A DNA stretch of 49,839 bases from Chelatococcus sambhunathii (GTDB lineage: Bacteria; Pseudomonadota; Alphaproteobacteria; Rhizobiales; Methylopilaceae), in the NCBI GenBank assembly GCA_031316315.1, contig JADBEO010000030.1, positions 1 to 49,839 on the forward strand. Reading direction: 5' to 3'. Shown one piece after another: positions 23,934 to 25,474 of the stretch (its first letter is position 1; every line of letters begins with the position of its first letter). Position numbers and translations under genes: made by a program. A model generated the notes under the pieces. That model ran no database searches and was not told the origin of the DNA. It saw only the letters and a list, made by a program, of their open reading frames with translations.

Positions 23934-24118
23934 GAGTTTCGGCCGGTTGCAGGCTTAACTTCCAGCGCCGCCATGGCGCCGGCGCAGGCTTCGGTTGTTG
24001 GGTCAGTCGACAGGTACAGCGCACATGAACGGGGGCTGCACATATTGATTAGAACGAGTTCAGGGTACTCAGGCTAGGATCAGGATGCTGCGGCTGACCC
24101 CCGTCCGGATAAGGCGCT

Positions 24119-24198
24119 GGGCTGGATACCCGCCCCTCTTCAGTCCAGACAGCCAAAAGCAGGTCCGATCGTTTGGGGTGCGGTCGGACCGTTTTGCT
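24119..24198 (+). ncRNA. Predicted two-hairpin small RNA, copy 1
   Basis: Hairpin 1 is GGGCTGG / TCAGTCC (7 bp, three G-U pairs) around the loop ATACCCGCCCCTCT. A linker ending AAAAGCA leads to hairpin 2, GGTCCGATCG / CGGTCGGACC (10 bp, one G-U) around TTTGGGGTG, then GTTTTGCT as a terminator-like tail. No protein frame fits. Similarity to copy 2 starts about 30 bases before hairpin 1, with a conserved CCGTC at 24101. The C-rich loop could pair with ribosome binding sites or with the GGGG of loop 2. Architecture recalls alphaproteobacterial sRNAs with exposed C-rich loops; the family assignment is open. Confidence 0.65.
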
Positions 24199-24297
24199 AA
24201 GAAATTCGTAAGAATGCGCGCTCTCGGCTCTTGCCGCCGGGGCCGGCGCACCTAAAACGACCACAGCTTCGCGCTGCGCCCCGTCACCGAAACGACG

Positions 24298-24384
24298 CCA
24301 ACCGGATACCCGCCCCTCTCCGGTTGGAACTGCGAAGAAGCAAGACCGCAGCCAATGGGGACAGGCTGCGGTCGCCTTCTTTTT
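24298..24384 (+). ncRNA. Predicted two-hairpin small RNA, copy 2
   Basis: This copy sits exactly 180 bp after copy 1 (loop to loop). Hairpin 1 is CCAACCGG / CCGGTTGG (8 perfect pairs) around the identical loop ATACCCGCCCCTCT. The linker ends AGAAGCA; hairpin 2 is GACCGCAGCC / GGCTGCGGTC (10 perfect pairs) around AATGGGGACA, followed by GCCTTCTTTTT. Stem sequences differ from copy 1 but pairing is kept in both hairpins, which is covariation. The second hairpin with its T-run is a good intrinsic terminator for a plus-strand RNA. Confidence 0.7.
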
Positions 24385-24386
24385 CA

Positions 24387-24423
24387 GGCCGCCCTGTCGC
24401 GGGCTGGTTGCGACAGGGCGGCC
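24387..24423. repeat. Perfect 14-bp inverted repeat after the tandem RNAs
   Basis: GGCCGCCCTGTCGC and GCGACAGGGCGGCC enclose a 9-base loop. It begins 2 bases after the T-run of copy 2. A partial third box, CCGCCCCTCT, follows at 24437-24446, flanked by only a 5-bp CGAGA/TCTCG stem; it may be a decayed third copy. From 24447 to about 24735 I see no gene, only a CTGGTG/CACCAG hairpin near 24645. Confidence 0.6.
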
Positions 24424-24734
24424 GAGAACGGCCGCGCCGCCCCTCTCGCTCTTCAAGAGCGCACATGCGGCTTCCCGTTCCCGTTGAGAAACTTACGCCA
24501 TCCGAGAACGTTGCGCGCGAGCTAAAACTACGTACTCGCGGCGGGCCTCTCCATGGAGAGCGTCTTCTAACTGCCTTCGAGCAGCGTAGCGGCACGCTTG
24601 CGCATCAGATGTCCGACGACAGTCGCACAGCCCGTCAAAACTGGTGGCTAACTCACCAGCATCGCCGCCGCGGGGCGTTTCGGTTGTAGCAGGCGACCAG
24701 GACAGCGTCGTTCAACAGCTCTCGCCCTAGCCAC

Positions 24735-25030
24735 CAGATCGTCCGAGGCACCGGGCCTGTCCTGATGATCGATCAGCGGATGGCCGAGCTCTACGGTCGC
24801 CTTCACTGCGCGATGGGCTCGCGTGCCGCTAGCACCTTCGCGACGCCCGCGTGAGTAAGGCTGTGGCCGGCTGCGACGATAACCGCCGCGATCGAGCGTA
24901 GGCTTTCGCCTTCAGCACGCATCCGGCGCATTTCGCGTATGGCGCCCTGTTCCTCGGCGTGCTCGACAAGCTCACCATCCCCGCCGAGGCGAAATCCGAA
25001 GGGAACCGAGCCGCCGAGGTAGCGCTTGCG
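24735..25030. repeat. Direct repeat: resolvase 3' end plus downstream flank, copy 1
   Basis: The end of the resolvase gene and about 65 bases beyond it (CCTGATGATCGATCA, ATGGCC-AGCTCTACGG) recur at 36690-36990 in the same orientation. The copy here is attached to an intact gene. Confidence 0.6.
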
Positions 25031-25474
25031 AGCCCTCTGGTCGCGTTTCACGTCCCGGATACGCTCGCGGATGCGGTCGCGCTCGGCCTCGGCGACTGCG
25101 GACAGGATCGTGAAGACGAGCCTGGAAATCCCATTCCCGGTAACGTCGCCGCCTAGGTCGATCATGTGAAGGGCGATGCCGGCCGCCTTGAAGCGCGCGC
25201 CGACATTGAGCGCGTCGACCGCCGAGCGGAACATGCGATCGAGCTTCGCAGTAATGATGACGTCGCAGGGGTTCACAGCCTGGAGGAGCTTGGCGCCTTC
25301 TGGCCGGTCGGCGAGGGGCTTCGATCCGGACACGCCGCGCTCGACGAACACGCGGTCGACGGCGAGACCGTGCATCATCGCGTAACCAGCAATGGCGCGC
25401 TCCTGCTGGCCGAGGCTCTCGCCTTCGTCGGCCTGTCGGTCGGTCGAGACGCGGACGTAAGCGAAAACGGCCAT
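24803..25474 (-). CDS. Serine recombinase (resolvase/invertase family)
   Basis: A 223-residue site-specific recombinase. The catalytic Ser is in VFAYVRVSTDRQADEGESLG, with the conserved Arg/Asp pattern in DRPEGAKLLQAVNPCDVIIT and KLDRMFRSAVDAL, and the long E helix includes AVAEAERDRIRERIRDVKRD. A C-terminal helix-turn-helix (about 165-215, AIREMRRMRAEGESLRSIAA) binds the site. Length fits the resolvase/invertase class rather than large serine integrases. Three GTAAACGT repeats start 15 bp before the ATG. A frameshifted partial copy is at 36759. Confidence 0.9.
   Translation of the reverse strand: MAVFAYVRVSTDRQADEGESLGQQERAIAGYAMMHGLAVDRVFVERGVSGSKPLADRPEGAKLLQAVNPCDVIITAKLDRMFRSAVDALNVGARFKAAGIALHMIDLGGDVTGNGISRLVFTILSAVAEAERDRIRERIRDVKRDQRARKRYLGGSVPFGFRLGGDGELVEHAEEQGAIREMRRMRAEGESLRSIAAVIVAAGHSLTHAGVAKVLAAREPIAQ

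Follow-up and report, generated by a model that had tools for sequence, protein, structure and literature searches.

Described small RNAs with C-rich loops

Tandem small RNAs (sRNAs) under an OmpR-type regulator are known, OmrA and OmrB being an example. The described systems closest to the elements reported here are, as far as the available parts of the sources go, the following. LhrC1-5 of Listeria, five copies under one two-component system, is induced by envelope stress and uses CU-rich loop motifs against mRNAs (PMC4132741). NfeR1 (alpha-r14) of Sinorhizobium has CCUCCUCCC in all three hairpins, an invariant C-rich motif on freely varying stems (PMC10746234). The sX13 RNA of Xanthomonas has 115 nt and three stem-loops, and its 4C/5C loops act on G-rich translation-start sites independently of Hfq (PMC3771888). 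GsrN, an alphaproteobacterial stress sRNA from Caulobacter with an exposed C-rich loop, is described as one gene with a sigma-T (GGAAC/CGTT) promoter, and its homologues typically lie near the general-stress locus (PMC5869019). ChvR is an sRNA controlled by an OmpR-type regulator (PMC9731502).

The DNA analysed here (the window) is a stretch of 49,839 nt from Chelatococcus sambhunathii (GTDB family Methylopilaceae, order Rhizobiales; contig JADBEO010000030.1 of assembly GCA_031316315.1). Two units in this window belong to an sRNA family that is apparently undescribed so far. Searched with the 4227 models of Rfam release 15 at the gathering threshold, the window gave only a tRNA, and a permissive search of positions 24000-24500 (E up to 5) gave only four weak, unrelated matches; the Rfam comparison proposed in the initial annotation of this DNA thus returned no matching family. 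In the openly licensed literature we found no description for Hansschlegelia combined with small RNA, nor for the TGAAC box (see below) and related terms; among the titles listed for Methylopila or Methylobacterium with sRNA terms there was no such family, and Methylopila was not named there.

Two tandem units in the window

Both units are on the + strand, at 24090-24195 (copy 1; E 2.4e-15, with a predicted 5' end) and 24270-24377 (copy 2; E 1.2e-6 and E 1.1e-9), the boundaries being those of the covariance models. The 14-mer ATACCCGCCCCTCT is found at 24126-24139 and again at 24306-24319, an offset of exactly 180 bp; in the ViennaRNA folds its outer A and T pair with each other, leaving 12 nt unpaired. 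Each unit consists of three hairpins: a small 5' hairpin (H0), a hairpin with the C-rich loop (H1) and a terminator-like hairpin with a TGGGG loop (H2). H0 lies at 24102-24116 in copy 1 (CGTC/GGCG, from the comparative alignment) and at 24282-24297 in copy 2 (CGTC/GACG, compensatory to CGCC/GGCG). H1, supported by folding and covariation in both copies, spans 24117-24148 (loop TACCCGCCCCTC at 24127-24138) and 24298-24327 (loop at 24307-24318). Its closing stems differ yet pair: CTGGGCTGGA/TTCAGTCCAG in copy 1 and CCAACCGGA/TCCGGTTGG in copy 2. H2 with its T tail spans 24162-24195 in copy 1 (fold and covariation) and 24344-24384 in copy 2, where the loop is AATGGGGACA (fold).

These features agree with the initial annotation in the identical 14-base loops and their spacing, in the different but pairing closing stems, and in the second hairpin with its TGGGG loop and T-rich tail. 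Its description of a two-hairpin unit was correct for the hairpins it named, both of which fold, but missed H0; nor did it notice the box upstream of copy 1 or the third occurrence of CGCCCCTCT, which lies at 24438-24446.

Compared with dinucleotide shuffles, the two units have ViennaRNA z-scores of -2.34 (copy 1) and -4.90 (copy 2). With longer flanks copy 1 folds differently at minimum free energy (z -0.31), and the z-score of copy 2 weakens to -2.09; the fold depends on the chosen boundaries, so single-sequence folding alone is no proof of structure. The pattern of loop, 25 to 55 nt and TGGGG has two matches in the window, against 0.00 expected from 100 shuffles. The exact word ATACCCGCCCCTCT occurs four times in the window's own genome (the reversed control has no occurrence), and it is found in seven out of 13 genomes of the genus and in none of 28 other genomes compared.

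Another element is conserved after copy 2, at 24387-24470 (+ strand; defined from four sequences only): a strong hairpin, then the invariant CGCGCCGCCCCTCTCGC. It contains the third CGCCCCTCT, and with CGCGCCGCCCCTCTCGC the core of the sRNA loop recurs in a third C-rich segment. The element is also seen downstream of the RNA in L072, L076 and L112, with compensatory stem differences (CCTGTCGC/GCGACAGG versus CCCGTCGC/GCGACGGG). Further downstream, a serine-recombinase-type gene (resolvase N-terminal domain; 24803-25474, - strand) adjoins the tandem pair.

Selection on structure and on the loop

We collected 51 members at E <= 1e-5 into one alignment (A5), in which standard pairs fill 95.5% of the 1180 pair cells, as compared to 31-43% for slid structures. 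Double changes are found at 23 out of 24 pairs. They occupy 144 cells versus 36.0 in shuffles, and none of 500 shuffles reached 144. As A5 was aligned by fitting to the model, it is biased in the model's favour, and sequences related by descent can score above shuffles of this kind. In a MAFFT alignment of 13 members, made without such fitting and without structure, 11 of the 17 predicted pairs still show double changes.

All 51 members have the same unpaired core, GCCCCU, and the C before it and the C after it are each kept in 50. The G loop of H2 is less strictly conserved (variants GGAGA, GCGGA, AGGGA and GGGAA), and H0 has the consensus CGYC-loop-GRCG. The distance from the C-rich core to the G loop, available for 49 of the 51 members, falls into the three reading frames 18, 16 and 15 times; this spread argues against a translated frame, which the initial annotation had named as a finding that would speak against its reading. 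That reading, selection on structure and loop sequence and not on protein, is strongly supported by the covarying pairs, the invariant core and the lack of frame bias. A T-rich tail is present in 23 out of 51 members under a loose rule and is no family trait, and termination at hairpin 2 may thus not be universal.

Members and taxonomic range

The sRNA family is restricted to one genus at the sensitivity used. A covariance model built from seven members (R1) gave good matches in all 13 genomes of the genus, i.e. homologues with preserved pairing, as the initial annotation had proposed to look for among alphaproteobacteria. None of five other genomes of the same family was matched by R1, and 43 other genomes of the order gave only two weak matches (E 0.12 and 0.585). 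In a sample of 384 genomes of the order outside the genus there was no convincing member (two matches, E 0.0019 and 0.0071), and in a sample of 384 other genomes of the class there was no match at E <= 0.001 (R2); the two samples overlap partly and were searched with stricter filters, about 10 candidates being scored per genome. One of the five family genomes outside the genus (G014) has a weak match (L128; E 0.081, 26.8 bits when rescored). Overall, weak matches outside the genus within the family and the order are few and score 26.8-35.2 bits. Inspected by eye, the non-genus matches L054, L055, L125 and L126 look like plain G/C-rich terminator hairpins lacking the C-rich loop, and they were discarded. 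A pattern scan of genome contigs returned 26 stretches, seven of them from Hansschlegelia, Chenggangzhangella or Methylopila records; the other 19, from other taxa, were taken as chance.

The A5 members number six in the window's own genome and two to ten in each of the other 12. Matches above E 1e-5 were left out (L071, L083, L104 and L105, as well as L129-L132, which score 28.8-30.6 bits and come from the same genus); some of these may be real divergent members, and L104 has the box. Two copies within about 0.2-0.5 kb of each other are found in five genomes: the window's own and those of L080, L101, L110 and L118.

By their flanking sequences the members fall into no more than 18 site groups; one of these is present in all 13 genomes, and most are lineage-specific. 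Eighteen is an upper bound, as L074 forms a group by itself although the start of its neighbour resembles that of the LemA-type neighbour of L118. One group, for example, consists of L072, L099, L112 and L115. The site in the window is private: it is present in one genome only and clusters with none of the sites in the other genomes of the comparison, and the stress-type neighbours from which the initial annotation drew added interest consequently carry little weight.

A shared upstream box and its putative regulator

An upstream box, TGAAY-N6-TGAAY-N16-RTTCAG, precedes 40 of the 51 members. In 28 of them, copy 1 of the window included, the box is 26-33 nt before the model start (two mismatches at most); in 12 more it is 145-216 nt before the start (one mismatch at most), with a short membrane-type ORF in between. 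The box of copy 1 (TGAAC-N6-TGCAC-N16-GTTCAG; 24026-24063, + strand) has one mismatch to the consensus, which was derived from the upstream sequences, and is followed by a -10-like CTAGGAT at 24074-24080 (+ strand), together a putative promoter. Copy 2 and ten other members have no nearby box of their own at up to two mismatches. Upstream of copy 2 (24198-24258, + strand) there is instead a TAAGAAATT-type element, which by eye resembles the sequence upstream of L072, L076 and L112; it reads TAAGAAATTCGTAAGAA at 24198-24214, and a -10-like TAAAAC is at 24253-24258. A -10-like [CT]TANNNT is found within 45 nt upstream of 22 members (out of 51), the pattern being loose and counted without a chance control.

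We searched 25 genomes with the box pattern lacking its last G. The 13 genomes of the genus have 73 sites, and the box is also present in nine of the 12 other genomes (22 out of 25 in total); the reversed pattern has no site in any of the 25. Of the 73 strict sites in the genus, 36 belong to the sRNA family. Among the other sites, those inspected lie upstream of genes for small proteins that look signal-peptide-like by eye, three of which have no Pfam match; one other box gene encodes an Hpt-domain protein (E 1.4e-9). The TGAAC box may mark an undescribed envelope regulon. Box sites are seen in several families of the order (e.g. L163, L164, L166, L168, L178 and L179), and the one in L179 precedes what by eye is a curlin-like repeat protein.

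Direct repeats of 11 bp are typical of OmpR/PhoB-type response regulators, and the spacing of the box suggests a regulator of this type as its binder. We considered ChvI and rejected it, since the box differs from both motifs published for it, TTGC-N3-GCAA and GCC-N8-GCC.

The common locus beside coaD

The site group shared by all 13 genomes of the genus lies beside coaD. When the model was run on the fetched coaD flanks, the RNA was found at 13 out of 13 genus loci; among 12 coaD loci from outside the genus, none had the RNA at E below 0.5. The gene on the other side is gyrA in ten of the 13 genus loci (it was not seen in L087, L088 and L095), and gyrA is within the fetched flank of seven of the 12 non-genus loci. 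Pfam supports the identity of these genes in one gyrA and one coaD.

All but one of the 13 genomes have, between the box and the RNA, a short ORF that encodes a strongly hydrophobic segment (best 19-residue Kyte-Doolittle mean 2.1-2.7). In eight of these 12 genomes its stop codon ends no more than 8 nt into the modelled RNA; in the other four, among them the window's own genome, the frame continues for 21-69 nt into the RNA. The own genome (L075) and L111 lack the usual stop codon and have a 75-codon frame that extends 58 nt into the RNA. The remaining genome, G003, has no ORF at this locus, and its box is 32-33 nt from the RNA. In a sister genus (G013), this slot is occupied by a near-box and a 61-codon frame, and the RNA is lacking.

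This layout of ORF, box and RNA, together with the slot in G013, points to an origin of the RNA in the 3' region of the ORF but is no proof of it. We hold tentatively, at somewhat less than even chances, that the family began within the 3' UTR of a short membrane-protein gene next to coaD that was controlled by the box, gained independence when RNA and promoter were copied together to other sites, and accounts for about half of the regulator's strict sites in the genus today. Some of the promoter-plus-RNA copies would then have been duplicated in tandem, as in the window. With all 13 genomes sharing the locus, and the slot in G013 keeping a near-box and a short ORF but lacking the RNA, the origin of new sRNAs from 3' UTRs and their multiplication can be studied at this very site. 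If this origin is correct, the birth of an sRNA, its escape from a 3' UTR and its amplification within one envelope regulon could be traced in a single case, and the almost fixed 8-nt loop core would be the most conserved part of an sRNA family that was born and spread in this way.

Proposed function and alternative explanations

We consider it likely that the family is a genus-confined, multicopy set of trans-acting three-hairpin sRNAs under one shared activator, which silence mRNAs through the C-rich loop. The two units in the window would be paralogous copies of one such RNA. A shared activator, probably a two-component response regulator of the OmpR/PhoB type and of the envelope-stress kind, would bind TGAAC-N6-TGAAC...GTTCAG and switch on most members together; the H1 loop of each RNA would expose the core CGCCCCUC, which would base-pair with G-rich sites near mRNA starts and block translation. 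The variable stems would serve only to keep the loop open, and hairpin 2 would end and protect the RNA. Action in trans via the loop is most likely. C-rich loops act in this way in sX13, NfeR1 and LhrC, as far as these are described in the available parts of the sources.

A search for targets gave no support for long pairing at start codons. The exact 9-nt complement GAGGGGCGG is found 2-16 nt before an ATG 193 times in the 13 genomes, versus 206 times for the permuted word GGCGGGGAG. Both are commoner than their backwards-read controls (48 for GAGGGGCGG and 55 for GGCGGGGAG), as G-rich words before ATG would be. Among 46 of the 193 match contexts, inspected by eye (at least one of them twice), no gene start was conserved between species. 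The anti-Shine-Dalgarno role that the initial annotation suggested for the loop is still plausible, but lacks this enrichment, and pairing may use shorter seeds. One candidate target encodes a signal-peptide-like protein, and its leader contains GAGGGGCGGC (L257 and L258); the word is kept in two out of 20 related loci, for some of which the wrong frame was chosen (e.g. L261 and L264), and this leader is only a lead. In L257 and L258, GAGGGGCGGC is complementary to the core of the C-rich sRNA loop. By eye, leaders of small secreted-type proteins often carry a hairpin-like GCCGC-GANGG-GCGGC motif about 10-50 nt before the start codon (seen among L257, L258, L262, L267-L270 and L273-L276).

The invariance of one loop and the variability of the other bear on two alternatives that give the G loop a role of its own. 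An intramolecular kissing or pseudoknot contact between CCCC in loop 1 and GGGG in loop 2, which had also been proposed in the initial annotation and would make each RNA one folded receptor or switch, would fit the complementary CCCC and GGGG-type loops that nearly all members have. However, the changes in loop 2 (to GGAGA, GCGGA, GGGAA or AGGGA) have no matching change in loop 1; such a contact finds no support in covariation, and we regard it as rather improbable. It is unlikely, if slightly less so, that the RNAs are CsrB/RsmZ-like and sequester a regulator bound to a TGGGGA loop. Nearly all members have a GGGGA-type loop, and the family is multicopy and probably regulator-controlled, but the strongest constraint is on the C-rich loop and not on the G loop. 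CsrA (PF02599) itself was rejected as the partner, being found in none of the 13 genomes of the genus, with a control positive in three out of 14 genomes; some RNA-binding protein other than CsrA could still take this part.

Two other explanations would do without an RNA that acts in trans. Several dispersed copies per genome at up to 18 mostly lineage-specific sites, as well as the resolvase-family gene near the pair in the window, are what a REP- or MITE-like short mobile or palindromic DNA repeat without RNA function would lead one to expect. A DNA palindrome should behave in the reverse of what is seen, i.e. stems that diverge with compensation around a fixed unpaired loop; moreover, 40 of the 51 copies lie in one orientation behind the same promoter box, all 13 genomes have kept one locus, and positions 24060-24390 of the window have no match in plasmid and phage collections at E 1e-5, all of which makes a DNA repeat very unlikely. 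As hairpin 2 resembles a terminator and some copies are close to a gene, the elements could also be cis-acting leaders or attenuators of a downstream gene, yet the neighbouring genes differ between site groups and several are on the other strand (22 loci inspected), and at the common locus the RNA is downstream of the short ORF; we give this explanation hardly any credence.

Comparison with known systems

The trans-acting sRNA reading adds an apparently undescribed, well-supported family to the methylotroph-related alphaproteobacteria, and links it to a promoter box that is spread over several families of the order and seemingly controls small envelope proteins. A nearly fixed loop on free stems would allow simple target prediction and loop-swap tests.

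The comparisons that follow hold as far as the known systems are described in the available parts of the sources. Like LhrC, the family consists of paralogous copies (two to ten per genome) that share one promoter element, the box behind 40 of 51 members; unlike LhrC, which belongs to an unrelated bacterium and has UCCC motifs at three sites per RNA, its members have one CGCCCCUC loop and a conserved G-loop hairpin. Xanthomonas, the host of sX13, is a gammaproteobacterium. The family shares three stem-loops and a C-rich loop with sX13, but sX13 has one described locus and the C-rich motif in all three loops, whereas here there are many copies with one C-rich loop each. ChvR differs in that the ChvI motif is not the TGAAC box.

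Sinorhizobium belongs to the same bacterial order as the window's genome. Three hairpins, an invariant C-rich motif and varying stems are common to the family and alpha-r14/NfeR1; the differences are that CGCCCCUC is confined to one loop, that another loop has TGGGG, that the promoter is a different one and that Rfam gives no match. Membership of alpha-r14 was therefore rejected, as one CGCCCCUC loop and one TGGGG loop take the place of CCUCCUCCC in three hairpins. A GsrN-type sigma-T/EcfG promoter (GGAAC-N15-17-CGTT) is found within 120 nt upstream of none of the 51 members, which have the TGAAC box instead. The initial annotation had likened the units to GsrN and the alpha-r sRNAs but equated them with neither. 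In our best reading, the family would work like LhrC, alpha-r14/NfeR1 and sX13 while belonging to none of them.
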